Assembly (NCBI GenBank): GCA_945883285.1
Contig: CAMCXH010000009.1
Coordinates: 1-38,404 of the forward strand
Direction of reading: 5' to 3'
Length of the DNA: 38,404 nt
Origin: Bordetella parapertussis
GTDB lineage: Bacteria > Pseudomonadota > Gammaproteobacteria > Burkholderiales > Burkholderiaceae_E
Of the stretch, positions 14,051-38,187 are shown in pieces. The notes beneath the pieces were generated by a model, which saw only the letters and a program-made list of their open reading frames with translations, made no database searches and was not told where the DNA came from. How positions within the stretch are numbered: position 1 is the first letter of the stretch; each line of letters opens with the position of its first letter. The position numbers were made by a program, and so were the translations under genes.

Positions 14051-15262
14051 ATGCTCAACCTGCCAGGCCTTCAGTTCGACCTCGGCGACGACATCGCCAT
14101 GCTGCGCGAATCGCTGCAGCAATTCACCGCCGCCGAGATCACCCCGCGCGCGGCCGAAATCGACCGCAACGACCAGTTCCCGATGGACCTCTGGCGCAAG
14201 TTCGGTGAGCTCGGCGTGCTCGGCATGACCGTGCCGGAAGCGTATGGCGGCACCGACATGGGCTATCTCGCCCATGTGATCGCGATGGAAGAGATTTCAC
14301 GCGGCTCGGCCTCGGTCGGCCTGTCGTATGGCGCGCATTCGAACCTGTGCGTGAATCAGATCAACCGCAACGGCACCGCCTGGCAGAAAGAAAAATTTCT
14401 GCCCAAGCTGATTTCGGGCGAATGGATTGGCGCCCTTGCCATGAGCGAGCCCGGCGCAGGCTCCGACGTGGTCTCGATGCGCCTTCGCGCCGACTTCAAG
14501 GGCGATCACTGGGTACTCAACGGCTCGAAGTTCTGGATTACCAACGGCCCGGATGCCGACCTGATGGTGATCTATGCCAAAAACGACCTCGAAGCCGGCG
14601 CACGTGGCATCACCGCCTTTCTGGTCGAAAAAACCTTCAAGGGTTTTTCGGTGGCGCAAAAGCTCGACAAACTCGGCATGCGCGGCAGTCATACCGGCGA
14701 GCTGGTTTTCCAGGACTGCGAAGTGCCGGCCGAGAACGTGCTGGGTGGCATCCAGGGCCGCGAACTCGACGGCGTGGGCCGCGGCGTCAATGTCCTGATG
14801 AGCGGCCTTGATTTTGAGCGCGCGGTGCTCTCGGGCGGGCCGCTGGGCATCATGAGCGCCTGCATGGATGTGGTCGTGCCCTATCTTCACGAGCGCAAGC
14901 AGTTCGGCCAGCCGATCGGCGAATTCCAGCTCATGCAGGGCAAGCTCGCCGACATGTACAGCACCATGATGGCCTGCCGCGCCTATGTGTATGAGGTCGG
15001 TCGCCAGTGCGATCGTGCCCAGAGGGGCGAGATCGATGTGCGCAGCCTGCGCAAGGATGCGGCCGCCGCCATCCTCTATTCAGCCGAGAAGGCCACCTGG
15101 ATGGCCGGCGAAGCGCTGCAGTGCCTGGGCGGCAATGGCTATATCAACGACTATCCGACCGGCCGACTGTGGCGCGATGCCAAGCTCTATGAAATCGGTG
15201 CCGGCACCTCCGAGATCCGCCGCATGCTGATCGGACGTGAACTTTTCGATGAGACCCGCTGA
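14051..15262 (+). CDS. ivd: Isovaleryl-CoA dehydrogenase
   Basis: FAD-dependent enzyme that oxidises isovaleryl-CoA to 3-methylcrotonyl-CoA in leucine breakdown. The catalytic base at Glu256, in [16 protein letters not shown], occupies the internal position specific to isovaleryl-CoA dehydrogenases, not the C-terminal position used by short- and medium-chain enzymes. Other signatures are [12 protein letters not shown] (about 93-104), [16 protein letters not shown] (128-143), [11 protein letters not shown] (161-171) and the C-terminal [18 protein letters not shown]. At 403 residues it is about 10 longer than typical; an apparent short insertion (GRELDGVG, near 236-243) lies just before the catalytic segment. 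It heads the plus-strand run and ends 4 bases before aceK. Confidence 0.95.
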
Positions 15263-15266
15263 GACA

Positions 15267-17060: not shown

Positions 17061-17078
17061 ACCGTCAAGGAGTCCACC

Positions 17079-18275
17079 ATGTCCGATCCCATCGTTATCG
17101 TCTCGGTCGCCCGCACCCCGATCGGAAGCATGAACGGCGAGATGTCGTCGTTTGCCGGGCAACAGCTCGGTGCGTTTGCGATCAAGGCAGCGCTCGAGCG
17201 CGCCGGCCTCAAGCCGGAGCAGATCCAGGAAGTCATCATGGGCTGCGTGCTGCCTGCCGGTCAGGGCCAGGCGCCGGCGCGCCAGGCTGCGCTTGGCGCC
17301 GGTCTGCCGGTATCGGCAGGCGCCACCACCATCAACAAGGTCTGCGGTTCGGGCATGAAAGCGGCCATGCTGGCCCATGACCTGCTCGCAGTCGGCAGCC
17401 AGGACATCATCGTAGCCGGCGGCATGGAGAGCATGTCGAACGCGCCCTACATGATGCTCAAGGGCCGCAACGGTTATCGCTACGGCCACGGCACGCTCTT
17501 CGACCACATGGCCCTCGACGGCCTGGAAGACGCCTACGACAAGACGCCCAATGGCGGCGGCAAATCGATGGGCCAGTTTGCCGAAGACTGCGCCGGCAAA
17601 TACAGCTTCACCCGCGACGAGCAGGATGCCTATGCGATCGCCTCGACCGAGCGCGCCCGCCAGGCCAATGAAGACGGCTCGTTTGCCTTCGAGGTCGCCC
17701 CGGTAACGGTTGCCGGTCGCAAGGGCGATGTCGTGATCAGCAAGGACGAAAGCCCCTTCAAGAGCGACACTTCCAAGATCCCCGGCCTGAAGCCCGCGTT
17801 TCGCAAGGACGGCACCGTGACCGCCGCCACCTCGTCATCGATCTCCGACGGCGCCGCGGCCATGGTGATGATGCGGGCATCGACCGCCGCAAAGCTCGGC
17901 GTCACACCGATTGCCAGGCTGGTGGCTCATACCACTCACTCGCAGGAACCACAGTGGTTCACCACCGCACCGGTGGGCGCCATCAAGAAGCTCTACGACA
18001 AGACCGGCTGGTCCAGCGCAAATGTCGATCTGTATGAAATCAACGAAGCTTTTGCGGTGGTCGCGATGGCGGCGATGAAAGAACACGACCTGCCGCAGGC
18101 CAGGGTCAACATCCACGGCGGCGCCTGTGCGCTGGGCCATCCGATCGGCGCATCGGGCGCGCGTCTGATCGTGACCCTGATCGGCGCGCTCAAGAAAACC
18201 GGCGGCAAGCGCGGCATTGCCTCGCTGTGCATCGGCGGCGGCGAAGCGACCGCGGTCGGCATCGAACTGGTCTGA
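17079..18275 (+). CDS. Acetyl-CoA C-acetyltransferase (thiolase)
   Basis: Thiolase II type enzyme that interconverts two acetyl-CoA and acetoacetyl-CoA. Active-site residues are visible: Cys89 in NKVCGSGMKA, the NEAFA motif (near 322), His354 in GHPIGASGAR and Cys384 in CIGGGEA. The 398 residues are the standard length and the sequence resembles the biosynthetic/degradative acetoacetyl-CoA thiolases rather than FadA. A strong AGGAG sits 7 bases before the ATG. In this context it can split acetoacetyl-CoA from leucine breakdown (after CoA transfer to acetoacetate) to acetyl-CoA, feeding the pathway governed by AceK. It could equally serve polyhydroxybutyrate synthesis. Confidence 0.95.
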   Translation: MSDPIVIVSVARTPIGSMNGEMSSFAGQQLGAFAIKAALERAGLKPEQIQEVIMGCVLPAGQGQAPARQAALGAGLPVSAGATTINKVCGSGMKAAMLAHDLLAVGSQDIIVAGGMESMSNAPYMMLKGRNGYRYGHGTLFDHMALDGLEDAYDKTPNGGGKSMGQFAEDCAGKYSFTRDEQDAYAIASTERARQANEDGSFAFEVAPVTVAGRKGDVVISKDESPFKSDTSKIPGLKPAFRKDGTVTAATSSSISDGAAAMVMMRASTAAKLGVTPIARLVAHTTHSQEPQWFTTAPVGAIKKLYDKTGWSSANVDLYEINEAFAVVAMAAMKEHDLPQARVNIHGGACALGHPIGASGARLIVTLIGALKKTGGKRGIASLCIGGGEATAVGIELV

Positions 18276-18280
18276 CCGGC

Positions 18281-18712
18281 ATGGCGACGCTGAAAACAGA
18301 AGGCGGGCTGCGGCGCATTTCGTCGGGATCCAGCTTCGAAGCGGCTGCCGGCTATTCGCGGGCAATCGTCGACGGCGACAGTGTGCTGGTCGCGGGCACC
18401 ACCGGCTTCAACTATGCCGACATGAGCATCGATGCCGATCCGGTCGCCCAGACCCATCAGTGCTTTGCCAACATCAGCGCTGCGCTCGCCCAGGCGAACT
18501 GCTCGCTCGACGATGTGGTGCGCGTGCGTTACCTGTTGACCGAGCCGGCGCTCTTCACCCTTCTCGCGCCGATCTTCGGGCAGTACTTCGCACGCGCCCG
18601 GCCGGTCGCCACCGCAATGGTCGTCGGGCTGATCGATCCGCGCCTGAAGATCGAGATTGAAGTCGATGCCCGGATTGCGCCGCCCGCGATGCCGAGTCCC
18701 TACATCGCCTGA
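18281..18712 (+). CDS. Rid (YjgF/UK114) family protein lacking the RidA-type arginine
   Basis: A 143-residue member of the Rid family, with the characteristic core FANISAALAQANCSLDDVVRVRYLL and the C-terminal LKIEIEVDARI. RidA proper is an imine/enamine deaminase that protects PLP enzymes. Its catalytic Arg lies in a Pro-Ala-Arg motif just before the last strands; here the aligned stretch reads ARPVATAM, so the position seems to be Ala110. That places it among the Rid subfamilies of unknown or different activity. It starts 5 bases after the thiolase stop, so it is very probably cotranscribed with it. The start is the first ATG after that stop; the frame is open slightly upstream. Confidence 0.88.
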   Translation: MATLKTEGGLRRISSGSSFEAAAGYSRAIVDGDSVLVAGTTGFNYADMSIDADPVAQTHQCFANISAALAQANCSLDDVVRVRYLLTEPALFTLLAPIFGQYFARARPVATAMVVGLIDPRLKIEIEVDARIAPPAMPSPYIA

Positions 18713-18750
18713 TCACCCTGCTCTGACACCGAACTGATGCCGAGTTTTCG

Positions 18751-19911
18751 ATGATCCTGTCTGCCGAACATGCCCAGGTGCGCGATGCGGTGCGCGCCTT
18801 CGTCACTGCCGAGATCACACCCCACGCGGCTCGCTGGGACCGGGAGTCGAGCTTTCCGGCGCAGGCCCTGCGCGGGCTGGCAGCGCTCGGCTGTTATGGC
18901 GTGGCCGTGCCCGAGCGCTGGGGCGGCGCGGGTCTCGACTACACCGCGCTCGCGGTGATCATCGAAGAAATCGCGGCCGGCTGCGGCGCCACCTCGACCA
19001 TCATCTCGGTCAACAACTGTCCGGTCGCCTCGATCCTGATGGCGTACGCCAACGAGGCGCAAAAGGCGCGGTGGCTGGCGCCTGTGGCCAGTGGCGAGAT
19101 GCTCGGTGCGTTTTGCCTCACCGAGCCGCATGTCGGGTCGGATGCCTCGGCGCTGCGCACCACCGCCCGGCGCGAAACCGCGGCAGACGGACGCGTGTCG
19201 TATGTGATTGACGGGGTCAAGCAGTTCATCACCTCGGGCAAGCATGCCGATGTCGCGATCGTCATGGCGGTCACCGACAAGGCCGCCGGCAAGCGCGGCA
19301 TCTCGGCCTTCATGGTGCCCACCGCCACGCCGGGCTACCGGGTGGCAAGGCTCGAAGACAAAGTCGGCCAGCATGCCTCGGACACCGCGCAGATCGCCTT
19401 CGAGGGCTGCCGGGTACCGGCCGAGAACCTGCTTGGCGAAGAAGGCCAGGGCTACAAGATCGCGCTGTCGGGGCTCGAGGGCGGGCGCATCGGCATTGCG
19501 TCGCAGTCGCTTGGCATGGCACGCGCCGCCTTCGAAGCCGCACTGCGCTATGCCAAAGAGCGCGAGGCCTTCGGGGTGCCGATCTTCGAGCATCAGGCGG
19601 TGCAGTTTCGCCTGGCCGACATGGCCACCAGTCTTGAGGCGGCGCGCCAGCTCATCCTGCATGCGGCCGCGCTCAAGGATGCCGGCCAGCCCTGCCTGAA
19701 AGAAGCCGCCATGGCCAAGCTCTTTGCCTCCGAGATGGCCGAGCGGGTCTGCTCGGACGCCATCCAGATTCATGGCGGATATGGTTATGTGTCCGACTTC
19801 CCGGTCGAGCGGATCTGGCGCGACGTGCGGGTCTGCCAGATCTATGAGGGCACCAGCGATATTCAGAAGATCCTGATCGGGCGGGCGCTGGCCAATGCCG
19901 ACAGCGCCTGA
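18751..19911 (+). CDS. Acyl-CoA dehydrogenase, short-chain/branched type
   Basis: FAD-dependent acyl-CoA dehydrogenase of 386 residues. The catalytic base is Glu366 in QIYEGTSDIQKILIGR, the C-terminal location of the short- and medium-chain group. Other signatures are FCLTEPHVGSDASALRT (about 126-142) and IQIHGGYGYVSDFPVERIWRD near the C-terminus. It therefore differs from the isovaleryl-CoA dehydrogenase encoded upstream. Likely substrates are butyryl-CoA or short branched acyl-CoAs, such as 2-methylbutyryl- or isobutyryl-CoA from isoleucine and valine; the sequence alone does not decide between them. It starts 38 bases after the Rid gene. Confidence 0.93.
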   Translation: MILSAEHAQVRDAVRAFVTAEITPHAARWDRESSFPAQALRGLAALGCYGVAVPERWGGAGLDYTALAVIIEEIAAGCGATSTIISVNNCPVASILMAYANEAQKARWLAPVASGEMLGAFCLTEPHVGSDASALRTTARRETAADGRVSYVIDGVKQFITSGKHADVAIVMAVTDKAAGKRGISAFMVPTATPGYRVARLEDKVGQHASDTAQIAFEGCRVPAENLLGEEGQGYKIALSGLEGGRIGIASQSLGMARAAFEAALRYAKEREAFGVPIFEHQAVQFRLADMATSLEAARQLILHAAALKDAGQPCLKEAAMAKLFASEMAERVCSDAIQIHGGYGYVSDFPVERIWRDVRVCQIYEGTSDIQKILIGRALANADSA

Positions 19912-19949
19912 GGCCGGCGATTCAACAAACATGCAAAACGGAGATGCGG

Positions 19950-20618
19950 ATGGAGACAGTTCAGATCGACGCCATCGACGGCAAGTCAGTACGGGCCTTC
20001 GTGGCACGCCCGCAGGGTGAGCCCAAAGGCTGCATCGTGGTCGTGCAGGAAATCTTCGGCGTCAACGACCACATCCGCTGGGTCGCGGCGCAGCAATATG
20101 CCGCTGCAGGCTATCTCGCGGTGGCCCCGGCATTTTTCGATCGCATCGAATCTTTCGTCGAACTCGGCTACACGCCCGAGGGCACGGCACGCGGGCGCAC
20201 GCTGGTCGATGCGCTGGGTCTGGATGCGCCGCTGCGCGATATTCGCGCGGCCCAGCAGCAGATCGGCCGCGGGCTGCCAACCGGCGTGGTCGGCTACTGC
20301 TGGGGCGGCACCGTGGCCTATCTGTCGGCCACCCGTCTGGGCCTGCCCTCGGTGGGCTATTACGGCGGTCGCACCGTGCCGTATCTGCACGAGCGGCTGC
20401 AGGCGCCGATGATGTTTCACTTCGGCGAGAAAGATGCCCTGATCACGATGGACGCGGTCAAGCGCATCAGCCAGACCCATCCGCAGGCTGCCTGCCATGT
20501 CTATCCGGCGGGTCACGGCTTCAATCGCCACGGCCATCCCGACTGGCACGACGACAGCGCAAAGACCGCGCTCGAGCGCACGCTCGCCTTCTTCGAGCAG
20601 AACCTGAGCCATGACTGA
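19950..20618 (+). CDS. Dienelactone hydrolase family protein
   Basis: Alpha/beta hydrolase of the dienelactone hydrolase type, 222 residues. The triad is Cys117 (GYCWGG), Asp162 (GEKDALI) and His189 (AGHGFNRH), with Glu34 in the VVQEIFGVNDHIR segment, the residue that holds the cysteine in check in known enzymes. Dienelactone hydrolase opens dienelactones in chloroaromatic breakdown, but many homologues act on other lactones or esters, so the substrate is open. An ATG at 19944 directly touches the CGGAG ribosome binding site; the ATG at 19950 leaves 6 bases, so I use it. It sits between acyl-CoA genes on the same strand. Confidence 0.9.
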   Translation: METVQIDAIDGKSVRAFVARPQGEPKGCIVVVQEIFGVNDHIRWVAAQQYAAAGYLAVAPAFFDRIESFVELGYTPEGTARGRTLVDALGLDAPLRDIRAAQQQIGRGLPTGVVGYCWGGTVAYLSATRLGLPSVGYYGGRTVPYLHERLQAPMMFHFGEKDALITMDAVKRISQTHPQAACHVYPAGHGFNRHGHPDWHDDSAKTALERTLAFFEQNLSHD

Positions 20619-20669
20619 CGCCGGGTCGGCATCATGACGCGTGGTTTGCGACTGCCGGGCTGATCGGGG

Positions 20670-21338
20670 ATGCGAGTCGACGCGGTGATCTTCGATTGCG
20701 ACGGCGTGCTGGTCGACAGCGAGCCGATCACCATGGCAGTGCTGACCGCCATGGCCAACGACGCCGGACTATCGCTCACCGAGCACGATGCGGCCGAGCT
20801 CTTCATGGGCAAGTCGCTGAGCGAGGACATCCGGATCATCGAATCGCAGCTCGGCAAACCCCTGCCGGCAGGCTGGACCAACGCCTATCTGGCCCGCCGC
20901 GATGCCGCGCTGTCGGCGCAGGTGGTGGCCGTGACAGGCATCGTCCATGTGCTTGATGTCCTGGCCGCCCGCGGCATTGCCGTCGCGGTGGCCTCGGGTG
21001 GCGATCGCGCCAAAATGCGCCTGACGCTTGGCACGACCGGTCTGCTGCATCGTTTTGAGGCGCCCGACCGGCAATCGTCCTGGCTCTTCGGTGCCGACAT
21101 GGTCGAGCAGGCCAAGCCCGCGCCCGATGTCTATCTGATGGCCGCCCGCGCGCTGGGCGCCGATCCGGCGCGATGCCTTGTCATCGAAGACACGCCGGTC
21201 GGCGTGCAGGCCGGCACGGCCGCCGGCGCGATCGTCTTCGGATACTGCGAGCGCAACGATCCGCGCAAGTTGCTGGCCCATGGCGCAAGCGCGGTGTTTG
21301 CCGACATGCACCGCCTGCCCGATTTTCTTTCGCACTGA
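20670..21338 (+). CDS. HAD-superfamily phosphatase, beta-phosphoglucomutase-like
   Basis: Cytoplasmic HAD hydrolase of 222 residues with a C1 cap. All motifs are present: nucleophile Asp9 and acid/base Asp11 (FDCDGVLVDSEP), Ser109 (VASGG), Lys149 (QAKPAPDVYL) and acidic Glu173-Asp174 (VIEDTPVGVQAG). The subfamily includes phosphoglycolate phosphatases, sugar phosphatases and beta-phosphoglucomutase; no clear specificity residue picks one. The gene lies 51 bases after the dienelactone hydrolase gene and 15 before the carboxylase gene, and is likely in the same transcript, though with no evident role in acyl-CoA metabolism. Confidence 0.9.
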   Translation: MRVDAVIFDCDGVLVDSEPITMAVLTAMANDAGLSLTEHDAAELFMGKSLSEDIRIIESQLGKPLPAGWTNAYLARRDAALSAQVVAVTGIVHVLDVLAARGIAVAVASGGDRAKMRLTLGTTGLLHRFEAPDRQSSWLFGADMVEQAKPAPDVYLMAARALGADPARCLVIEDTPVGVQAGTAAGAIVFGYCERNDPRKLLAHGASAVFADMHRLPDFLSH

Positions 21339-21353
21339 TACCTTCTGATCACC

Positions 21354-22961
21354 ATGCCCGCCATCGAATCCCGCCTTGACACCCGATCTGCCGACTTCAA
21401 GACCAACTCGCAGGCTATGGCCGCGCTGGTCGATGAGCTGCGCGTGCATTGCGCCAAAGCGGCCGACGGCGGCGGCAAGACCGCCCGCGACCGGCACACC
21501 TCACGCGGCAAGCTGCTGCCGCGCGATCGTATCGATCAGCTGCTCGACCCCGGCACCGCCTTTCTCGAGCTCTCGCCGATGGCCGCGCACGAGATGTACG
21601 ACAACGAGGCGCCCTGCGCCGGCATCATTACCGGCATCGGCCGGGTGTCGGGTGTCGAATGCCTGATCGTGTGCAATGACGCGACCGTCAAGGGCGGCAC
21701 CTATTACCCGGTGACCGTGAAAAAGCATCTGCGCGCACAAGAGATCGCCGCCGAAAACCGCCTGCCCTGCCTCTATCTGGTCGACTCGGGCGGCGCCAAC
21801 CTGCCCAACCAGGACGAGGTGTTCCCCGATCGCGAGCACTTCGGACGCATCTTCTTCAACCAGGCCAATCTGTCGGCCCGCGGCATTCCGCAGATCGCGG
21901 TGGTGATGGGCTCATGCACCGCAGGCGGCGCCTATGTGCCGGCGATGAGCGACGAGTCGATCATCGTTCGCAACCAGGGCACGATCTTTCTGGGCGGGCC
22001 ACCACTGGTGAAAGCCGCCACCGGCGAAGTGGTCACACCCGAAGACCTCGGCGGCGGCGATGTGCACGCACGCCAGTCCGGCGTGGTCGACTGGCTCGCC
22101 AACGACGATGCGCATGCACTCTCGATTGCGAGGAGCATCGTGGCCAATCTCAACTGGCAAAAGCCCGAGCAGCTGGTGCGCACCGCCCCGGTCGAGCCGC
22201 GCTACGACCCGCGCGAGCTCTATGGCGTGCTGCCGACCGACACCCGCAAGCCCTATGACGTGCGCGAGGTCATTGCCCGCATCGTTGACGACTCGGCCTT
22301 CGACGAATGGAAGGCCCGCTACGGCACGACGCTTGTCACCGGCTTTGCGCGCATCCACGGCATGCCGATCGGCATCATCGCCAACAACGGCATCCTCTTT
22401 TCGGAGTCGGCACTCAAGGCCGCGCACTTCATCGAACTGTGCTGCCAGCGCAAAATTCCGCTGCTCTTTTTGCAGAACATCAGCGGCTTCATGGTCGGTC
22501 GCAAATACGAGAACGAAGGCATTGCACGCAATGGCGCGAAGATGGTCACCGCGGTGGCCTGTGCGCAGGTGCCCAAGTTCACGGTGATCATCGGCGGCAG
22601 CTTCGGCGCCGGCAACTACGGCATGTGCGGGCGGGCCTACTCGCCGCGATTCCTGTGGATGTGGCCGAATGCGCGCATCAGCGTGATGGGCGGCGAGCAG
22701 GCCGCCTCGGTGCTGGCCACCGTCAAACGCGACGGCATCGAGGGGCGCGGCGGCGCCTGGAGCGCCGAAGAAGAGGCCGCGTTCAAGGCGCCACTGCGCG
22801 CGCAATACGAGCGCGAAGGCCATCCCTATTACGCCACCGCGCGCCTGTGGGACGACGGCATCATCGACCCGGCCGACACCCGCCGGGTGCTGGCGCTTGC
22901 CATGTCGGCCAGCCTGAATGCGCCGATCGCCGAGACGCGCTTTGGCGTGTTCCGGATGTGA
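21354..22961 (+). CDS. mccB: Methylcrotonoyl-CoA carboxylase, carboxyltransferase (beta) subunit
   Basis: Carboxyltransferase subunit that moves CO2 from biotin to 3-methylcrotonyl-CoA, giving 3-methylglutaconyl-CoA in leucine degradation. The 535 residues are exactly the usual length. Signatures of the true methylcrotonyl enzyme are [20 protein letters not shown] (acyl-CoA side, about 141-160), [20 protein letters not shown] and the biotin-side [20 protein letters not shown] (about 413-432). No biotin-carboxylase alpha subunit, methylglutaconyl-CoA hydratase or HMG-CoA lyase gene follows it, as would be normal in liu operons; the only alpha gene in the window is about 10 kb away on the other strand, next to a different beta gene. 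Confidence 0.95.
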
Positions 22962-26554: not shown

Positions 26555-28619
<2,065 letters not shown>

Positions 28620-29486
28620 TTACCAGGCGTGTTGCGCGTCAACCGGGAAGCTGCCGTCCTTGACCGCCTTCACATAGGCTTCGATGGCCTCACGCACGCC
28701 GCCTGCGCCCTCCATGAAGTTGCGCACGAATTTCGGGTTCTTGCCCAGATTCACGCCCAGCATGTCGTGCATGACCAGCACCTGACCGGCAGTGCCCAAG
28801 CCCGAGCCGATGCCGATGGTGGGGCAGCGGGGCAATTGCTTCGTCAGACTCGCCGACAGTGCCGCCGGGACCATCTCCAGAACCAGCATCGCTGCGCCGG
28901 CATCCTGCAACTCCAGCGCGTGACGGGTCAGCTCAGCAGCGGCTTGCTCGGTTTTGCCCTGCACCCGATAGCCGCCCAGGGCATGGACGGTTTGCGGTGT
29001 CAGGCCGAGGTGAGCACACACCGGAATGCCGCGCTCGACCAGGAAGCGCACGATGTCAGCGGTCCAGCCGCCGCCTTCCAGCTTGACCATATGCGCACCG
29101 GCCTGCATCAGTGCTGCCGCGCTGCGCAACGCCTGCTCGCGCGACTCCTGGTAGCTGCCAAACGGCAGATCGCCCACCAGCCACACCGTGCCCTGCACGC
29201 GACGCACGCCGCGGGCCACGCTTTGCACGTGATAGCACATGGTCTCAAGGCTCACGCCGACCGTGCTCGACAAGCCCTGACAGACCATGCCGAGAGAGTC
29301 GCCCACCAGGATCACTTCGATGCCTGCGGCATCGGCCACGGCCGCGAAGGTGGCGTCATAGGCGGTGAGCATGGCGATCTTCTCGCCGCGCGAGTGCATC
29401 TCGAGCAATCGGGGCAGGCTCATCGGACGGCGCATGGGGGGCGCTGCATGCACCGGCAAAGAACCGTAGGGCGTGGAAGTGGTCAA
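28620..29486 (-). CDS. panB: 3-Methyl-2-oxobutanoate hydroxymethyltransferase, TTG start
   Basis: First enzyme of pantothenate synthesis, transferring a hydroxymethyl group from methylene-tetrahydrofolate to 2-oxoisovalerate (ketopantoate formation). The 288 residues contain [13 protein letters not shown] (about 36-48), [11 protein letters not shown] with the metal Asp (about 58-68), [16 protein letters not shown] and the [20 protein letters not shown] segment. The start is TTG at 29486-29484 with AGGAG 6 bases upstream; an ATG 5 bases before it is out of frame and followed at once by a stop. It is followed by panC. Confidence 0.96.
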
Positions 29487-29540: not shown

Positions 29541-30632
29541 TCAAACCAGTCCTTGCAAGCGCGCCGCCTCACCCCGCAAAAACTCAGGCGAGCCGAGCAT
29601 CTGCCGATTGAACCCGATCCGCTTGAACCAGTAGTGCAGCCCGACCAGATCGGTGAAACCCATGCCGCCATGCACTTCGGTTGCGGTCTTGGCAACCGAG
29701 GTGGCCACCTCGCTCAGATGCGCCTTGAGCTGACCGGCCACCAGACTGGCCTCATGCGGAATCTCGTCAAGCGCGTGCCCGGCATACCAGACGAAGGCGC
29801 GCGTGGGCTCAAGGTCGGCCGCCATCTGCGCGCACATATGCTTGACCGCCTGGAAGGAACCGATCAGGCGCCCGAACTGCACTCGCTGACCGGCATAGGC
29901 GACCGCCTGATCGATCATGTTCTGCGCGGCACCCAATGAATCGGCGGCAAGCATCGTGCGGCCGATGTCGAGCACCCGCTGCATCACCACGGCATCGGCG
30001 CCGGCAAGCGGTTCGGCTGCAACCCGATCGAACACCAGCTCGCCGATCGGTCTGGTGCGATCGACGGTCTCGAGCCGCTGACGGCCCAGCCCTGCGGCAT
30101 CAGCAGCGACCAGATGCAGGCCACCGGCCAGATCGCCCACCAGATAGGCATCGGCCTCGAAATCGAGCACATAGAGCGCACGACCGCTCAGCCGACCGTC
30201 GACAGCGGTCACGCCCGCTTGCGCCCCGGCCACCGCCCGCGCTCCACTGCGCTCGGCCAGCGCCGCGCCCACCACCGTCTTGCCGGCCGCAATCCGGGGC
30301 AGCCAGTGCGCCTGCTGCGCGGGGCTTGCAGCGAGCATCAGCGCGGTCGGCACCATGATCGCGTTGGCCACGAAAGGCACCGGGGCGATGCGGTAGCCAA
30401 GCGTTTCAGCGGCCACACAGGCATCGAGCGCGCCAAGACCCACGCCTCCGTGTTCGGTGGTGATGATCAGACCCGACAGGCCGATCTCGTTGAGCCCAGC
30501 CATCACCTCAGCAGCACGGCCTTCGTCTTTCTCGGCAAAGCGGCGAACCCGATCAAGGGCTGCCCGCTCGCGCAGATAGGCATCGAGGCTGTCCTTGAGC
30601 AGGACCTGTTCCGACGACAGTCCGAATTCCAT
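29541..30632 (-). CDS. Acyl-CoA dehydrogenase-like subunit without a catalytic glutamate
   Basis: A 363-residue protein with the acyl-CoA dehydrogenase fold (N-terminal helices, a shortened beta domain, and a C-terminal bundle with QRVQFGRLIGSFQAVKHMCA and TATEVHGGMGFTDLVGLHYW). Both known places for the catalytic base are empty: where isovaleryl-CoA dehydrogenase has LDFER this reads LDIGR (Gly224), and the C-terminal Glu-Gly-Thr motif is absent. The larger dehydrogenase gene just upstream shares one base (TGATG) with this start. That arrangement matches heteromeric acyl-CoA dehydrogenases such as the mycobacterial FadE28/FadE29 pair, in which only one subunit is catalytic. I infer a structural or FAD-binding partner role. 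Confidence 0.88.
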   Translation of the reverse strand: MEFGLSSEQVLLKDSLDAYLRERAALDRVRRFAEKDEGRAAEVMAGLNEIGLSGLIITTEHGGVGLGALDACVAAETLGYRIAPVPFVANAIMVPTALMLAASPAQQAHWLPRIAAGKTVVGAALAERSGARAVAGAQAGVTAVDGRLSGRALYVLDFEADAYLVGDLAGGLHLVAADAAGLGRQRLETVDRTRPIGELVFDRVAAEPLAGADAVVMQRVLDIGRTMLAADSLGAAQNMIDQAVAYAGQRVQFGRLIGSFQAVKHMCAQMAADLEPTRAFVWYAGHALDEIPHEASLVAGQLKAHLSEVATSVAKTATEVHGGMGFTDLVGLHYWFKRIGFNRQMLGSPEFLRGEAARLQGLV

Positions 30633-31825
30633 CAGGCAGCCCCTGCGGTTCTGGGTTCGCGCGGCAGGCCCAGACCCCGCTCGGCGATGATGTTCTTCTG
30701 GATCTGGCTGGTGCCACCGCCGATGATCAGGCCGAGGTAATACATGTAGTGCACCTGCCAGGCGCCGTTGTCCTGCAGATGAGGGTTGGCGCCATACGCC
30801 AGACCGCGCTCGCCCATGACGTCGATGCCCAGGCCCTCGAGTTCGTGGCGCAGTTCGGTGCCCTGGAGCTTGACGATCATGCGGGCAAGCGCTGTGTCCT
30901 GGCCGCGATTGAGTTTGCTCGAGAGCACCCGCAGCTCGTTGTATTTCATGGCCATCACACGGCCCTGGAGGCGCATCAGCCGATCACGATAGATTGGCTG
31001 ATCGATCAGGCGGCGGCCATCGAGGGTTTCGGTCTTCATCAGCTCGACCAGCGCATTCAGGCGCGCCTGCGCGATATTCGGGTCGGCAAGGCTGTCGCGT
31101 TCGTTGCCGAGAATGACATTCGCCACCTTCCAGCCGTCGCCGCGACGCCCGACGATCTGGTGTGCCGGCACCCGCACATCGGTGAAGAAGACCTCGTTGA
31201 AATTCGCGTTCATGGTCATGTCGACCAGCGGCCTGATCTCGATGCCCGGCGTGTCCATGCGAAAGAGCAGAAAGCTGATGCCCAGATGCTTGGGTGCCTC
31301 CGGCTCGGTGCGCACCAGGCAGAAGATCCAGTCGGCAAGATGCGCGGTGCTGGTCCAGATCTTCTGGCCGTTGATGATCCACTCGTCGCCCTTCAAAACC
31401 GCCGAAGTGCGCAGCGCGGCCAGATCGCTGCCGGCGCCCGGCTCGGAATAGCCCTGGCACCAGACGGTTTCACCGCTGAGCGTCGACGCAATGTGATCGC
31501 GCTTCTGTTGCTCGGTGCCCATCTCGAGCAGTGTGGGCACCAGCATCGAGATGCCCTGGCCGCCCAGGCCGGGGCTGATGCGGGCCGATGCGAATTCTTC
31601 GGCAATGATGCGCGACTTCAGCAGGTCGGGGGCCTGGCCGGCCCCGCCATACTCGGTCGGAATCGTGCGCGCGGTATAGCCGTGGGCGATCAGCAGACGC
31701 TGCCAGGCGCGCGCCTTTTCGTCGCGCGGGCCGCCGGCCACCGGCGCCAGATGGCGGTTGGCCGCGATGAAGGCGCGAAGCGCGTCGCGAAAGACCTCGT
31801 ACTCGGGGCCGTAACTCAGATCCAT
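30632..31825 (-). CDS. Acyl-CoA dehydrogenase, probable catalytic subunit of a heteromer
   Basis: A 397-residue acyl-CoA dehydrogenase. The flavin/substrate segment [21 protein letters not shown] (about 122-142) and INGQKIWTSTAHLADW (151-166) are well preserved. The C-terminal segment reads IIGGGTSQIQKNIIAE, so the short-chain-type Glu is missing. Glu242, in VILGNERDS, lies at the internal position used by isovaleryl-CoA dehydrogenase-like enzymes and is the likely base. Homologues of this layout act on bulky acyl-CoAs, such as steroid side chains, as heterotetramers. It starts 24 bases after the hydratase gene and is translationally coupled to the smaller subunit gene. Confidence 0.9.
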   Translation of the reverse strand: MDLSYGPEYEVFRDALRAFIAANRHLAPVAGGPRDEKARAWQRLLIAHGYTARTIPTEYGGAGQAPDLLKSRIIAEEFASARISPGLGGQGISMLVPTLLEMGTEQQKRDHIASTLSGETVWCQGYSEPGAGSDLAALRTSAVLKGDEWIINGQKIWTSTAHLADWIFCLVRTEPEAPKHLGISFLLFRMDTPGIEIRPLVDMTMNANFNEVFFTDVRVPAHQIVGRRGDGWKVANVILGNERDSLADPNIAQARLNALVELMKTETLDGRRLIDQPIYRDRLMRLQGRVMAMKYNELRVLSSKLNRGQDTALARMIVKLQGTELRHELEGLGIDVMGERGLAYGANPHLQDNGAWQVHYMYYLGLIIGGGTSQIQKNIIAERGLGLPREPRTAGAA

Positions 31826-31849: not shown

Positions 31850-32722
31850 TCAGTCCTCCCTGATCCAGGACGGTTTGCGCTTTTCGCGGAAAGCCGCCAT
31901 GCCTTCGGCCGCCTCGGGGCTGGTGAACATGCGCCGGCTCCAGGTCGCCATTTCGGTAAAGCCCTCGTCCATCGAAAGCTGCTGCACGCGGCGCACCAGC
32001 TTCTTGCACTCGGTCACCGCGATCGGGCCACCGAGTCGGATGGTATCGACCTCCTCCTGCACTGCGGCCCGAAGATCGGCCAGCGGCACGGCCCGATGCG
32101 CAAAGCCGATCTCGACCGCGCGGGCACCCGAAAAGCGCTCGCCGCTGATGAAGAGTTTCATGGCGTGATGGGTGCCGAGCTTGGGCACGCAAACCACCGC
32201 GATGATCGCCGGGATCACGCCGATCCGAACTTCCGAAAAACTGTAGGGCGCGTCGTCAGCGGTTATCACGATGTCGGCTGCGCCCACCAGACCCAGACCG
32301 CCGGCAAAGGCTGCGCCATTGACCGCCACGATCACCGGCTTGGGGCTGTCGATCATGCGTTTCAGCACCTCGGGCAACGCGACCGCCCGCCCGCCGTCCA
32401 CCGCATGACCCGGCGGGTTCTTGAGGTCTGCGCCGGCGCAAAAGGCCGGACCGTTGCCGGTCAGCACAATGGCGCGTACCGAGGGGTCGTCGATGGCGGT
32501 GGCCAGATGATCGTAAAGCTCGTTGACCAGCGAGGTCGACAGCGCATTGCGGTTGGCCGGGCGATTGAGGGTGATCCAGGCAGCGCCCTTTTCAACCGAG
32601 TAGAGCGTGGCCTGTGGGGTGGCCTGTGGGGTGGCCTGTGGGGTGGCCTGTGGGGTAGCCTGGGGGGTGGCATGAGGCGTGGCCTCGGACGCTGCGCCAC
32701 TCGAATTGTCGGTGCCTGTCAT
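31850..32722 (-). CDS. Enoyl-CoA hydratase, methylglutaconyl-CoA hydratase-like, with N-terminal repeat
   Basis: Crotonase-fold protein of 290 residues. The core begins near residue 40 (LYSVEKGAAWITLNRPANRN). The oxyanion-hole segment AFCAGADL is near 93-100. In NGAAFAGGLGLVGAADIVI the first catalytic Glu of classical hydratases is Gly, and in YSFSEVRIGVIPAI the second Glu is kept. Both traits match bacterial LiuC/AtuE hydratases as I remember them, which act on 3-methylglutaconyl-type substrates. Before the core is an extra tail with about six Ala-Thr-Pro-Gln units. AGGA about 8 bases upstream supports the ATG at 32722. It lies between the carboxylase alpha and dehydrogenase genes. Confidence 0.9.
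   Translation of the reverse strand: MTGTDNSSGAASEATPHATPQATPQATPQATPQATPQATLYSVEKGAAWITLNRPANRNALSTSLVNELYDHLATAIDDPSVRAIVLTGNGPAFCAGADLKNPPGHAVDGGRAVALPEVLKRMIDSPKPVIVAVNGAAFAGGLGLVGAADIVITADDAPYSFSEVRIGVIPAIIAVVCVPKLGTHHAMKLFISGERFSGARAVEIGFAHRAVPLADLRAAVQEEVDTIRLGGPIAVTECKKLVRRVQQLSMDEGFTEMATWSRRMFTSPEAAEGMAAFREKRKPSWIRED
32607..32678 (-). repeat. 12-bp tandem repeat in the hydratase N-terminus
   Basis: Four perfect plus-strand copies of GTGGCCTGTGGG (32607-32654) are followed by two diverged copies (GTAGCCTGGGGG, GTGGCATGAGGC). On the coding strand they encode a run of Ala-Thr-Pro-Gln units, residues about 14-38. Copy-number change would keep the frame. Confidence 0.92.
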
Positions 32723-32726
32723 GCGA

Positions 32727-34751
32727 TCAGTCCTTGCTGTCTTCGAGCATCACGAGCACCGCGCCATTGGCGACCTGCTCTCCCTCGCTCACCTTCACCG
32801 CCTTGACCACGCCGGCGGCCGGTGCGGTGATGCGGTGCTCCATCTTCATCGCCTCTAACACCAGCAGCAGCTGGCCGCGCTCGACCGCCTGATCGGGCGC
32901 CACCGCAATCGAGAGCACGCGCCCGGGCATCGGCGCCTTCAGGCCACCGCGGAAATCGGCGCGACCGGTGGGCGCAAAGCGCGGCAGCTCGAGCAGCTCG
33001 ACATCGCCGAAGGCGCCATGCGCCAGGCATCGATCGCCGATACGGGTGATTGCGATTGCGCTGCGCTGGCCGTCGATTGCCAGATCGATGTCGTGCTCGC
33101 CGGCACGAAACACCACTGCCTGATGCGCCTGGCCATTGACCTTCACCGCAAAGCTGCCATCGCGCTGTCGGTCGTATTCGACCTTCAGATCGGTGGCGGC
33201 ATCGGCTGCACCGTGTGGGCGAAAACTCACGCGTTGCCAGGGCATGCGCGAGGTGCGAAAGCCCGAGGGCATCGTGCCCAGCACCCGGGCCGATGCCCGG
33301 CGGCGGTGGCTGGCATGCAGGGCGGCACCGATGGCTGCGGCTTCGCGTTCACGGGTATCCGGCTCGCGCACCGGCGCAGGCGCGACCCGCTCGATGAAGT
33401 CGGTGGTGGTGTCGCCGCGCAAAAACTCGGGTGTGCGCAGCGTGGCCACCAGAAAGTCGCGGTTGTGGGTAATGCCCTGGATGCGGGTGGTCTCGAGCAC
33501 GCGTGCGAGGCGTGCTGCCGCCTCGCGGCGGGTCGGTGCCTTGACGATGACTTTGGCGATCATCGGATCGAACTCGATCGCAATCTCGCTGCCCGACTCG
33601 ATGCCTGAATCAAAGCGTGCACCGTCATCGGATGACGGCTGCCAGACATCGATGGTGCCGGGCGTGGGCAAAAAACCGTTGGCCGGATTCTCGGCGCACA
33701 GGCGCGCTTCGATGGCGTGGCCGTCTATCTTCAGATCGGCCTGGGTGTAGCCCAGCGGCTCGCCTTCGGCCACGCGGATCTGCTCGCGCACCAGATCGAT
33801 GCCGGTGATCATCTCGGTGACCGGATGCTCGACCTGCAGGCGGGTATTGACCTCGAGGAAAAAGAATTCTTTTCCGCTCAGCAGAAATTCGACCGTGCCC
33901 ACCGAGTGATAGTCGATCGCCCTGACCGCTGCGAGCGCCGCCTGCCCCATGCGCTCACGCAGCGCCGCATCGACTGCGGACGAGGGCGCCTCCTCGATAA
34001 TCTTCTGGTGACGGCGCTGAATCGAGCATTCGCGCTCGAACAGATGCACCAGATTGCCGTGGCGATCGCCGAGCACCTGGATCTCGATATGGCGCGAGCC
34101 GGTGAGCCAGCGCTCGAGAAAGACCGTGCCGTTGCCAAAGGACGCGGCGGCCTCACGCCGTGCGCCGGCAATCGCCTGCTCAAGGCCCGCCGGTGACTCG
34201 ACGATACGCATGCCGCGCCCGCCGCCGCCGGCTGCCGCCTTGATCAGCACCGGATAGCCGATGCGCTGCGCCGCGGCTGCCGCATCGGCACCTTCGGTGA
34301 GTTCGTGAGCATCGAGCGTGGGCACGCCCACCGTCTGCATCAGGCGCTTGGCGGCCAGCTTGTCACCGATGCCCCGGATCGCGGCGGGAGACGGGCCGAC
34401 CCAGATCAGGCCGGCATCGATGACTGCCTGCGCAAAGCCGGCGTTCTCGGACAGAAAACCGTAGCCGGGATGCACCGCGTCGGCGCCGCTGCGCCGGCAG
34501 GCATCGATCACCTTGCCGATATCGAGATAGGTCTGCGCCGAGGTGCGGCCATTGAGCGCGATCGCGGTATCGGCTTCGCGCACGAAGGGGCTGGCAGCAT
34601 CGCCATCGGCATAGATCGCGACCGTGCCGATGCCCATGCGGTGTGCGGTGCGCATCACGCGCCGGGCGATCTCGCCACGGTTGGCGACCAGCAGGCGACG
34701 GATTGGCTGGATGGCAGGTGGGGTGCCGGGTTTCATCATTACATCCGCCAT
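32727..34751 (-). CDS. Acyl-CoA carboxylase alpha subunit (biotin carboxylase + biotin carrier)
   Basis: Biotin-dependent carboxylase alpha subunit of 674 residues. The biotin carboxylase domain runs from LLVANRGEIARRVMRTAHRM to about 465, with the ATP loop KAAAGGGGRGMRIV and EVNTRLQVEHPVTEM. A linking domain (about 490-600) is followed by the biotinyl domain, with the biotin-accepting Lys636 in EAMKMEH. The layout and length match alpha subunits of methylcrotonyl-, geranyl- and related acyl-CoA carboxylases, not the separate acetyl-CoA carboxylase subunits. The start overlaps the beta gene by 13 bases. It is the only alpha subunit in the window, so it might also serve the beta subunit encoded at 21354-22961. 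Confidence 0.93.
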   Translation of the reverse strand: MADVMMKPGTPPAIQPIRRLLVANRGEIARRVMRTAHRMGIGTVAIYADGDAASPFVREADTAIALNGRTSAQTYLDIGKVIDACRRSGADAVHPGYGFLSENAGFAQAVIDAGLIWVGPSPAAIRGIGDKLAAKRLMQTVGVPTLDAHELTEGADAAAAAQRIGYPVLIKAAAGGGGRGMRIVESPAGLEQAIAGARREAAASFGNGTVFLERWLTGSRHIEIQVLGDRHGNLVHLFERECSIQRRHQKIIEEAPSSAVDAALRERMGQAALAAVRAIDYHSVGTVEFLLSGKEFFFLEVNTRLQVEHPVTEMITGIDLVREQIRVAEGEPLGYTQADLKIDGHAIEARLCAENPANGFLPTPGTIDVWQPSSDDGARFDSGIESGSEIAIEFDPMIAKVIVKAPTRREAAARLARVLETTRIQGITHNRDFLVATLRTPEFLRGDTTTDFIERVAPAPVREPDTREREAAAIGAALHASHRRRASARVLGTMPSGFRTSRMPWQRVSFRPHGAADAATDLKVEYDRQRDGSFAVKVNGQAHQAVVFRAGEHDIDLAIDGQRSAIAITRIGDRCLAHGAFGDVELLELPRFAPTGRADFRGGLKAPMPGRVLSIAVAPDQAVERGQLLLVLEAMKMEHRITAPAAGVVKAVKVSEGEQVANGAVLVMLEDSKD

Positions 34752-36370
34752 GTGCCGTACTCCTTGGTGCCTGCGACCGCCCGGTTGTGACAGGCAGACA
34801 ATGCAATGCCGATGACCGTGCGCGTGTCGCGCGGATCGATCATGCCGTCGTCGGAAATGCGTGACGTGGCATAAAGCCCTTTGGATCGTTCCTCGGCCCA
34901 GTGCTCGACGGCCTCCACGCGCTTGTCGTTGGCCGCCTCATCGAAGGTCTCGCCGCGCCGCTCGGTGGCCGCGCGCTGCACGATGGTCATGACACCGGCC
35001 ATCTGCTTGGGGCCCATCACCGCGATCTTGGCGGTCGGCCAGATGAAGGTGAAGCGCGGCCCGAAGGCGCGCCCGCTCATGCCGTAATTGCCCGCGCCAT
35101 AAGAGGCACCGACGATGACCGAGATGTGCGGCACGGTGGAATTGGAAACCGCGTTGATCATCTTCGAGCCGTTCTTGGTGATGCCGTTCTGCTCGAAGTC
35201 GGTGCCCACCAGAAAGCCGGTGATGTTGTGCAAAAAGATCAGCGGCACATCGATCTGGTTGCACAGCTGGATGAACTGCGCAGCTTTTTCAGCCGACTCC
35301 GGAAAGAGCGCGCCATTGTTGCCAAGGATGCCAACCGGAAAGCCATGCACCGACGCCCAGCCGGTGATAAGGGTCGGGCCATAGAGCGGCTTGAATTCTT
35401 CAAAACGCGAGCCGTCGACAATGCGTGCAATCACCTCGCGCATGTCGAAGGGCTGGCGCAGGTCACGCGAGACGATGCCCAGCAGGTCTTGCGCGTCGTG
35501 GACCGGCTCATCGGCCGGCAGGGACGGGCCGGGCCCTTCCTTGCGCCAGTTGAGATGGGTGACCACCTCGCGGCACATGCGGATCGCATCCATTTCGTCT
35601 TCAGCGAGATAGTCGCCCAGGCCCGAGATCGTGCAATGCATCTGCGCGCCGCCCAGGCTCTCTTCGTCGGCGTCTTCGCCGGTGGCCATCTTGACCAGTG
35701 GCGGGCCGCCCAGAAAGACCTTCGACTGACCACGGATGAAGATGTTGTAGTCGCTCATGCCCGGCTGATAGGCGCCACCGGCGGTCGACGCACCGAAGAC
35801 CACCGAGATGGTCGGGATGCGCAGCTTGGACAGTTCGGTGATCTCGTAAAAGAGGCGCCCCGACTCGGCGAAATGATTGGTCTCGCGCCGGATCGCCGCC
35901 TCGGGGTCGCCGCCGGCATCACCGCGCAGGTCGGCGCCGGCCGACTCCACGAACTGCACATAGGGCATGCGGTTGATGCGTGAGATCTCGAGGCCGCGCA
36001 TCAGCTTCTTGGCATTGAAGGCATTGAAGGCACCGGCCCGCACCGAGGGGTCGTGGCCGAGGATCACGCATTCGACGCCTTCGATCACGCCGATGCCGAC
36101 CACAAAGCCCGAGCCGACATTGAACTCGGAGCGCCAGGCCGCCAGCGGGCTGATCTCAAGAAAGGGTGAATCGGGGTCGAGGACCATCGCAATGCGCTCG
36201 CGCAGCGGCAGCTTGCCGCGGGCCCGCAGGCGCTTCATCGCGTCTTCGCCGCCGCCGGCGGCGACTTCATCGTGCAGGGCATCGAGTTGCGCCAGGGTTT
36301 CGAGCATTTCGGCGCGGTTTTGCGCAAAACGCTCGCTCTTGCGATCGAGTGTGGACTCGAGGACAGACAT
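34739..36370 (-). CDS. Acyl-CoA carboxylase beta subunit (carboxyltransferase), divergent from MccB
   Basis: Carboxyltransferase subunit of 543 residues, partner of the alpha subunit it overlaps. The biotin-side motif GASYGAGNYGMSGRAFGPRF and acyl-side FVESAGADLRGDAGG are present. It differs from the methylcrotonyl enzyme at 21354-22961 throughout: there the acyl-side segment reads [12 protein letters not shown] and [11 protein letters not shown], here VESAGADLRGDAG and FYEITELSKLR. The acyl pocket is thus probably shaped for another substrate. The gene order carboxylase beta, alpha, hydratase, dehydrogenases resembles mycobacterial accD2/accA2 neighbourhoods with fadE and echA genes. Substrate unknown; geranyl-CoA-like or other branched enoyl-CoA is possible. 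Confidence 0.92.
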   Translation of the reverse strand: MSVLESTLDRKSERFAQNRAEMLETLAQLDALHDEVAAGGGEDAMKRLRARGKLPLRERIAMVLDPDSPFLEISPLAAWRSEFNVGSGFVVGIGVIEGVECVILGHDPSVRAGAFNAFNAKKLMRGLEISRINRMPYVQFVESAGADLRGDAGGDPEAAIRRETNHFAESGRLFYEITELSKLRIPTISVVFGASTAGGAYQPGMSDYNIFIRGQSKVFLGGPPLVKMATGEDADEESLGGAQMHCTISGLGDYLAEDEMDAIRMCREVVTHLNWRKEGPGPSLPADEPVHDAQDLLGIVSRDLRQPFDMREVIARIVDGSRFEEFKPLYGPTLITGWASVHGFPVGILGNNGALFPESAEKAAQFIQLCNQIDVPLIFLHNITGFLVGTDFEQNGITKNGSKMINAVSNSTVPHISVIVGASYGAGNYGMSGRAFGPRFTFIWPTAKIAVMGPKQMAGVMTIVQRAATERRGETFDEAANDKRVEAVEHWAEERSKGLYATSRISDDGMIDPRDTRTVIGIALSACHNRAVAGTKEYGTWRM

Positions 36371-36433: not shown

Positions 36434-37045
36434 TCAGAGGTCGTAGGCTTTCTTGAACGCGGGCCGCTCGTTGATGCGCTCCCAGTAGCGCTTGATGTTC
36501 GGGGTGAAGACCTCGTCGATGTTGAGCGAGGTGGCCAGCACCAGCGCATAGCCAACGCAGATGTCGGCGATGGTGAACCGGTCGGAGCACAGCCAGGTGC
36601 GCGTGGCAGTGGCTTCTTCTACGGCACGCATGCGCGCGAGGAACCACTTGCGATAGTCGGCCACCACTTGCGGATTGCGCCGCTCCTCCGGCTCGAGACG
36701 GGTATAGCGCAGCATCAGCGTCTGCGGAAAGGTGAAGGTGGCATCGCTGCGGTGCAGCCAGTTGAGGTAGGCACCGTAGTCGGGCTCATCGGTGCGCACC
36801 GCCAGCGGCGTGGGGCCATAGTGATCGACCAGGTACTGGCAGATGCCGGCCGATTCGGTCATGACCACATCGCCATCGACCATGCACGGCACCGTGCCCA
36901 GCGGATTGATCTTGAGGTATTCCTTGTGCAGGACGCGCGGCGGAAAGGGCAGCGTGACCAGCGTGTGGTCGAGGCCCATTTCGAGCAGGGTCCAGAGTGG
37001 GCGCATCGAGCGGGCGCGCGTGCAGTGGTAGAGGGTGATGCTCAT
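36434..37045 (-). CDS. Glutathione S-transferase family protein within the carboxylase cluster
   Basis: GST-fold protein of 203 residues. The N-terminal domain includes LYHCTRARSMRPLWTLLEM with Ser13 and Arg15 near the glutathione site, NPLGTVPCMVDGDVVMTESAGICQYL (about 47-72) with cis-Pro and the Glu-Ser turn, then the helical domain with FTIADICVGYALVLA (about 157-171), the usual N-capping box. It lies between the HMG-CoA-lyase-like and carboxylase genes on the same strand, so a role in the same pathway is possible, for example glutathione-dependent isomerisation or thioester handling. That role is inference only. Confidence 0.9.
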   Translation of the reverse strand: MSITLYHCTRARSMRPLWTLLEMGLDHTLVTLPFPPRVLHKEYLKINPLGTVPCMVDGDVVMTESAGICQYLVDHYGPTPLAVRTDEPDYGAYLNWLHRSDATFTFPQTLMLRYTRLEPEERRNPQVVADYRKWFLARMRAVEEATATRTWLCSDRFTIADICVGYALVLATSLNIDEVFTPNIKRYWERINERPAFKKAYDL

Positions 37046-37095: not shown

Positions 37096-38187
37096 TCACG
37101 CGCGGTTCAGTGCCGAATCGCTGCGCCAGGGCGAGATCTGATTCGCATAAACCTCGGGGCCGTTGCGAAAATGCGCGGCCTCTTCGAGGGTCTCGATGAA
37201 GGGCATGTCGACCGGATAGAGCTGGTCGCCGCGCGGGCGCGGGCCGGACTTCGAGACATGGCCCCACAGCCGATGGCCGACCACGTCTTCGGCAACCGCC
37301 ACCGCCTCGATCAGCTTGCCGAGGTCATAGCCGGTCTGGATGCCCATTTCATGGCACAGATCGACAAAGTCTTCGGTGGGCACATGACCGGCCGAGCGCC
37401 CGTTGCCCGAGTAAGGGCAGCCACCCATGCCGCCCAGGCAGGTATCAAACTCGCGGGCGCCAAGCTGCAGCGCTTCGTAGTAGCTGGCAATGGTGGCGCC
37501 ACGCTGGTTATGCAGATGCATGTGAAAGTTGGTGATCTGCGGCCAGCGCTCGCGGATGGCGAGCAGGGTCTCGCGCACCTGATGCGGCAGGTTCCAGCCC
37601 ATCGCTTCAAGAAAGGCGACGCGCGTGACAGTGATGCCGGCGTTTTGCCACTTGTCGATCATCATCGCGAGCATGTCCATGCGCTGCGCCAGCGTATAGG
37701 GCCCGCTGAAGTTGGAGCCGAAGGGATTGCCGATGCCAACCGACGCCTGGGTGGCACCGGCGGTTTTCGCAGCCGCGACCGTGGCATCGAGGGCTTCAAT
37801 TTGCTGCGCCTGCGTGCGGTTGTAGTTGCGCCGGGCAAAGGCATCGCACATCTCGACCGCGGTGCCGGGCAAGTTGGTGCGCTTGCGCACATCGAGCTTG
37901 GGGAAGTATTTGTCGGCGCGGTCGTAGCCGGCCTTGTTGAAGACCGCCGCGGTATAGCGGATACCGGCCTTGGGCACGAAGCGCTCGGCGATTTCGTCGA
38001 TGCAGGCCATCTGCGGCGTCCATTTGGGATGCGCAAACGAGCCGATCGAAATCACCTTTGCGCCGGTCTCGCCGAGCGCATCGAGCAGACGCAGCTTGGC
38101 CTCGACCGGGATCGAGGCGCTTTCGATCTGCAGACCCTCGCGCATGGTGTCGTCGGTAATGGTGACGGATTCGGGCAGTTGGCTCAT
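37096..38187 (-). CDS. HMG-CoA lyase-like (DRE-TIM) enzyme, divergent
   Basis: TIM-barrel metal-dependent lyase of 363 residues. The N-terminal metal/base motif reads DDTMREGLQIE, with Arg16-Glu17 where HMG-CoA lyase has Arg-Asp. The metal His pair is His224 and His226 in HMHLHNQRG, with Asn227 where HMG-CoA lyase has Asp. The catalytic-loop Cys257 is in GGMGGCPYSGNG. It is about 60 residues longer than ordinary HMG-CoA lyase (about 300), with the extra part at the C-terminus. In this cluster it would cleave the 3-hydroxy-3-alkylglutaryl-CoA product of the hydratase to acetoacetate-type and acyl-CoA products. Precise substrate unknown. It opens the carboxylase cluster. Confidence 0.88.
   Translation of the reverse strand: MSQLPESVTITDDTMREGLQIESASIPVEAKLRLLDALGETGAKVISIGSFAHPKWTPQMACIDEIAERFVPKAGIRYTAAVFNKAGYDRADKYFPKLDVRKRTNLPGTAVEMCDAFARRNYNRTQAQQIEALDATVAAAKTAGATQASVGIGNPFGSNFSGPYTLAQRMDMLAMMIDKWQNAGITVTRVAFLEAMGWNLPHQVRETLLAIRERWPQITNFHMHLHNQRGATIASYYEALQLGAREFDTCLGGMGGCPYSGNGRSAGHVPTEDFVDLCHEMGIQTGYDLGKLIEAVAVAEDVVGHRLWGHVSKSGPRPRGDQLYPVDMPFIETLEEAAHFRNGPEVYANQISPWRSDSALNRA

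Follow-up and report, generated by a model that had tools for sequence, protein, structure and literature searches.

Two adjacent genes on the minus strand of the window (the whole stretch of DNA analysed, 38,404 nucleotides) probably encode the two subunits, α and β, of a single α2β2 heteromeric acyl-CoA dehydrogenase (ACAD), a reading to which we give a probability of about 0.85. When this enzyme is stated together with an inferred pathway role the whole is still likely, if somewhat less so. We infer the assembly, stoichiometry and activity of the pair from its relatives. Subunit α would bind the acyl-CoA and the flavin ring, with Glu242 removing the α-proton, while β, in which the base and the flavin-ring side are lost, would use Arg/Gln and Gly-Gly elements to bind the ADP half of the FAD on the other side of the interface; there would be two working sites per four chains. 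The α2β2 heteromeric ACADs have so far come mainly from steroid and dicarboxylate breakdown. The pair forms the end of its operon in the window as well as in close relatives (Table 1).

Table 1. Genes of the window and loci in other contigs and genomes that are discussed in the text.
Feature	Position	Strand	Basis or remark
α, predicted catalytic subunit of heteromeric ACAD	30632..31825	-	397 aa; ORF, match to 4x28_A
β, predicted non-catalytic, ADP-holding subunit	29541..30632	-	363 aa; ORF, match to 6wy8_A
Enoyl-CoA hydratase (crotonase), upstream of α	31850..32722	-	PF00378, 169.8 bits
Biotin carboxylase/biotin carrier subunit of acyl-CoA carboxylase	32727..34751	-	Biotin_carb_N, CPSase_L_D2, Biotin_carb_C, Biotin_lipoyl; BT_MCC_alpha 27.8 bits, just below cut-off of 31
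Carboxyltransferase subunit, MCC/GCC lineage	34739..36370	-	MCC β 502.9 bits, GCC β 451.4 bits
Glutathione S-transferase (GST) family protein	36434..37045	-	Domain matches; orthologue adjoins carboxylase in relatives
HMG-CoA-lyase-like protein, first operon gene in view	37096..38187	-	363 aa; domain matches; 108.2 bits to HMG-CoA lyase 1ydo; NCBIfam 167 bits, cut-off 246
panB and panC	27780-29486	-	
Leucine-type gene set	14051-22961	+	
IVD-type ACAD of this set	14051-15262		Yardstick
MCAD-type ACAD of this set	18751-19911		Yardstick
MCC β of this set	21354-22961		865 bits to 3u9r
Second α/β pair in a relative	L032:10539-13237		Same place in L031, L033, L035, L036, L037
GST, second pair and first pair	L109:6279-12271		Gammaproteobacterial MAG
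Nitronate-monooxygenase-like genes	L039:4639-5814, L133:17531-18685, L135:1661-2845, L130-L132		
Further α/β pairs, same genome as the window	C86 (two), C67, C105, C15, C4, C103		One cut by contig end

The α and β genes meet at CTGATGGAA, where they overlap by one base in TGATG. Inspection of the codons placed Glu242 of α, its predicted catalytic base, at GAA (31100-31102) and Gly224 of β, which lies at the internal base position, at GGC (29961-29963). Two canonical ACADs of the window were aligned with both proteins as yardsticks, one with the MCAD-type C-terminal base (IYEGTSD) and the other with the IVD-type internal base (DFER, then AGT). Compared with both, α has the internal base only, with Gly at the C-terminal position, and β has neither base. 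The original prediction had read the same residues (Gly224 and no C-terminal Glu-Gly-Thr in the smaller protein, Glu242 and a C-terminal Gly in the larger one) and the same gene overlap, and is borne out on these points. An acidic residue is nevertheless retained by β near the site, since Glu350 (LGSPE), which follows the canonical C-terminal site by three residues, is invariant in an alignment of 25 β sequences. The other β proteins of the same genome have mostly GD-type tails at this place.

A joint alignment of 81 α and 76 β sequences shows how the catalytic and flavin-binding residues are divided (the position names Arg281, Gln292 and Trp166 follow what we take to be MCAD numbering). The internal base position holds Glu in all 81 α sequences and mostly Gly (67/76) or Ala (6/76) in β, with Glu absent from the β residue counts listed; the pattern is not a matter of chance. 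No Glu was found at the C-terminal base position of either subunit. The α proteins retain EPGAGSD (Ser in 80/81 and Asp in 81/81 for its last two residues), the Trp166-like residue (81/81) and, in the C-terminal loop, GT. They have lost the Arg, Phe and Gln with which a chain contacts the ADP of its neighbour's FAD: Glu replaces Arg at the Arg281-like position in 75/81 and Pro replaces Gln at the Gln292-like position in 78/81. The β pattern is the reverse. Its neighbour-type ADP site is kept (Arg and Gln each in 75/76) and its flavin-ring side is lost, with Ala (43/76) and Arg (73/76) at the SD positions of EPGAGSD. The same division of labour is described for ChsE4-ChsE5 in the accessible text of PMC11153573 and PMC8399759.

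The coupling of the two genes is almost strict. The β start lies no more than 200 bases past the α end in 79 of 80 relatives (named genome records), and in the single exception α is followed by only five bases of contig. Purifying selection acts on both genes: in comparisons with four relatives, dN/dS is 0.10-0.20 for α and 0.08-0.24 for β (dS is near saturation in most of these comparisons). The possibility that β is a pseudogene was ruled out by its intact frame, this constraint and its conservation at the 79 loci. These data, together with the residue counts, also bear on the proposal that α by itself forms a working homotetramer of the internal-base (IVD/LCAD) type, β being a decaying or moonlighting paralogue. 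The base, the flavin-ring motifs and all three domains are indeed present in α, but the neighbour-type ADP site that a homotetramer needs is precisely what α has lost, and its partner is intact, constrained and coupled; we consider this proposal highly improbable. The ACAD C-terminal domain has 39 matches in the genome of the window, and the ten stretches examined there contain at least seven more neighbouring α/β pairs showing this residue pattern, so that the architecture by itself is ordinary in this genome, a point that the original prediction had overlooked. Less usual is its company in the operon, with a carboxylase that seems suited to bulky, terpene-like molecules.

The best solved match of α is ChsE4 (4x28_A, 3.5e-47; profile 205.7 bits), followed by Tcur3483 of 6wy8, and the best chain outside these two heteromers scores 142.5 bits with the α profile. 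For β it is Tcur3481 (6wy8_A, 1e-27; profile 141.2 bits), with the homomeric 4l1f close to it (135.1 bits). The β monomer model (pLDDT 86.7) has a complete ACAD fold whose nearest structures by TM-score are Tcur3481 and some homotetramers; the fold search did not single out heteromers, 6wy8 being third and ninth amid homotetramers. The α monomer model is poor (pLDDT 70.1, weakest from residue 339 to the end), which we do not take as a sign of obligate pairing, and the four ChsE4/Tcur3483 chains that Foldseek places on top with this model add little. At the level of sequence, the best solved relatives, the split flavin site and the strict coupling give good support to the match to heteromeric enzymes that had been proposed originally. 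The pair shares several traits of the α2β2 class (ChsE1-2, ChsE4-5, IpdE1-2 and the Scd type): adjacent co-directional genes kept together, a catalytic Glu in one subunit only, and the FAD ring side in α with the ADP side in β. Membership in the IpdE2 family (NF050027) was rejected (105.5 bits against a cut-off of 450).

The nearest solved relatives being steroid enzymes, the pair might be a steroid or polycyclic side-chain dehydrogenase like ChsE4-ChsE5, with the operon carboxylase acting on a branched sterol side chain. In agreement with this, relatives of 62-66% identity on sphingomonad plasmids are found near genes for thiolase-like and ChsH2-like OB-fold proteins. However, there is no steroid-ring gene among the annotated genes of the window, identity between α and ChsE4 is ~32%, and the loop with Pro89 and Pro91 of ChsE4 is not conserved in this α group, whose consensus is ARVxxGLGGQG. 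A steroid role is thus quite unlikely.

An indication of the substrate comes from the carboxylase of the operon. In the accessible text of PMC4673880 the position of Phe191 in MCC and Gly162 in GCC is the one governing entry of large substrates. The operon carboxyltransferase has Ser at this position (human Phe191 was located by counting along the printed alignment), as have its close relatives, and three distant relatives have Ser or Thr; Phe is found in the window's own MCC β. Under the guideline of PMC4673880, by which an MCC carries Phe at Phe191, the operon protein does not classify as MCC. Where GCC has Gly162 it has Ser, likewise a small residue; the loop ahead of this site is longer than in either MCC or GCC, and the AYQPGxSDY segment is common to it and GCC. 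Identity of the operon carboxylase with the MCC of the leucine pathway was rejected, the latter being encoded elsewhere in the window within a separate set (an IVD-type dehydrogenase, MCC β, a thiolase and an MCAD-type dehydrogenase, with aceK between). The absence of the Phe that excludes large substrates suggests a bulky substrate for the pair. A large acyl chain had also been predicted originally, from the architecture, and this ground did not hold: with straight-chain dicarboxylic acids of C8-C12, PimCD-like pairs of β-proteobacteria show strong phenotypes (PMC12543098, accessible text), and the two prolines of ChsE4, credited with enlarging its cavity (PMC11153573), lack conservation among these α proteins. 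The bulky substrate stands on the operon carboxylase instead.

For the hydratase, a γ-carboxygeranoyl-CoA hydratase model is among the best matches, under its cut-off. The HMG-CoA-lyase-like protein retains the Arg and the Cys of GGCPY and differs from HMG-CoA lyase at two positions (RDGLQ to REGLQ and GNAATED to GHVPTED), which are presumably metal ligands in that enzyme. On the other side of the pair, panB and panC lie closely downstream of β on the same strand. They are also annotated past β in two of the compared relatives (G002, G005), a long overlapping frame having been chosen instead in G001.

From these genes a pathway can be proposed. The pair would dehydrogenate a bulky β-methyl-branched, isoprenoid-type acyl-CoA to the 2-enoyl-CoA, the methyl group of which would be carboxylated by the operon biotin carboxylase (γ-carboxylation); the hydratase would then add water and the HMG-CoA-lyase-like enzyme would cleave the product. 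Such a route would parallel the acyclic terpene (Atu) pathway, the heteromer doing the work of AtuD. We give this terpene-type role of the pair nearly even odds.

The neighbourhoods of relatives speak on both sides. Among 61 genomes searched, ten have α at 57% identity or more, and the nine other than that of the window were compared. The carboxylase is upstream of the pair in seven (G001, G002, G005, G007, G009, G013, G028), whereas in G017 the contig begins 912 bases before α and the region further upstream is out of view. In G016 the pair directly follows AtuA; the cluster there includes another carboxyltransferase (42% identity) along with biotin carboxylase, nitronate-monooxygenase-like and hydratase genes. 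A small-genome, marine-type member of the same taxonomic class (G343) has, in a row, the carboxyltransferase (62%), the biotin carboxylase, AtuA, the hydratase, α (60%) and β (37%), with one 203-aa frame separating AtuA from the biotin carboxylase, the GST (53%) being divergent. Carboxylase, AtuA and hydratase genes are together also in G236, where α is elsewhere, and in G091, where α is missing at the threshold used. In a survey of 369 genomes α was found in nine and the carboxyltransferase in four. They co-occur in three (P 4e-5, with genomes treated as independent and self-chosen thresholds), and in two of 368 when the window's own genome is removed (hypergeometric P 0.0012, genomes again treated as independent). 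The linkage of the pair to a γ-carboxylase-type cluster in three unlike contexts supports the terpene-type pathway.

This pathway is weakened by the fact that most orthologues of the pair are away from the carboxylase and by the absence of an AtuA (PF07287) match in the window's own genome (~94% complete). A carboxyltransferase of at least 40% identity adjoins the pair at only 7 of 80 loci, and the GST, the HMG-CoA-lyase-like gene and the hydratase at 6 each. The sphingomonad plasmid relatives have acyl-CoA synthetase, flavin monooxygenase and P450 genes as neighbours. Biotin carboxylases are near the pair at 18 loci; they were not counted as that of the operon because their cluster has a median of 1114 aa and many are 40-45% identical. 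Most gammaproteobacterial relatives have mixed, housekeeping-looking neighbours (one with a Lon-like start, by eye) that give no functional clue. This distribution would also fit the same heteromeric architecture acting, like PimCD, on straight-chain dicarboxylic or other ordinary acyl-CoAs, with the carboxylase operon incidental. The best NCBIfam models are pimC_large and pimD_small, and such pairs serve C8-C12 dicarboxylates in β-proteobacteria, as noted above. Nevertheless, the scores are far under the equivalog cut-offs (238.9 against 623.85 bits and 112.1 against 652.7 bits), for which PimC/PimD membership was rejected, and the recurrent γ-carboxylase-type linkage would be left aside; a PimCD-like role is unlikely.

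Further genomic features were observed. In six of the seven carboxylase-linked relatives the hydratase and α are separated by a second α/β pair with ~35% and ~29% identity to the first. Neither the window nor G009 has this second pair, and the best copy elsewhere in the window's genome is only 37% identical. A gammaproteobacterial MAG carries the GST (66%) and the second pair (51% and 70%) in divergent orientation to α/β, so that these three elements keep together there, the carboxylase being out of view. Close to the carboxylase or to α/β, a nitronate-monooxygenase-like gene is found repeatedly in unrelated lineages.

In its most specific form the terpene-type reading is tentative: the heteromer may be the equivalent of citronellyl-CoA dehydrogenase in an uncharacterised γ-carboxylation pathway with a distinct carboxylase (Ser for the Phe of MCC or Gly of GCC) and its own HMG-CoA-lyase-like enzyme, present in freshwater Burkholderiales and in AtuA-bearing, small-genome, marine-type gammaproteobacteria. 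Among the openly licensed papers that a literature search listed, none joined geranyl-CoA with a heteromeric ACAD, an absence that proves little. The pair itself is one more member of an established enzyme architecture, and the operon is moderately interesting. If its reading is true, the split-dehydrogenase architecture extends to terpene-type carboxylation pathways, and a split dehydrogenase beside a Phe-less MCC/GCC-type carboxyltransferase could serve to find so far overlooked isoprenoid degradation in uncultured bacteria of fresh and marine waters.

Among known systems, ChsE4-ChsE5 (FadE26-FadE27 of Mycobacterium tuberculosis, 4x28) is likewise encoded by two genes and has the internal-type Glu in α only, its substrate being the cholesterol side chain. 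Tcur3481-Tcur3483 of Thermomonospora curvata (6wy8/6wy9), the closest solved relative of β (27-29% identity), is a steroid ACAD for bile-acid side chains, unlike the role proposed here, and we know of no carboxylase linked to it. The pimeloyl-CoA dehydrogenase PimC-PimD (TIGR03204/TIGR03203), also encoded by adjacent genes, provides the best-named models for both subunits and acts on a dicarboxylate. The Atu pathway comprises AtuD, the geranyl-CoA carboxylase AtuC/AtuF, the hydratase AtuE and the lyase LiuE (PMC4097962, accessible text), the same order of chemistry that the operon implies (dehydrogenase, MCC/GCC-lineage carboxylase, hydratase, HMG-CoA-lyase-like enzyme). The window's genome differs from the Atu cluster in being without AtuA, which does adjoin the cluster of the pair in G343 and G016, and the operon differs in that its dehydrogenase is a predicted two-gene heteromer and its carboxyltransferase has Ser instead of the Gly of GCC, with a longer loop at this place.
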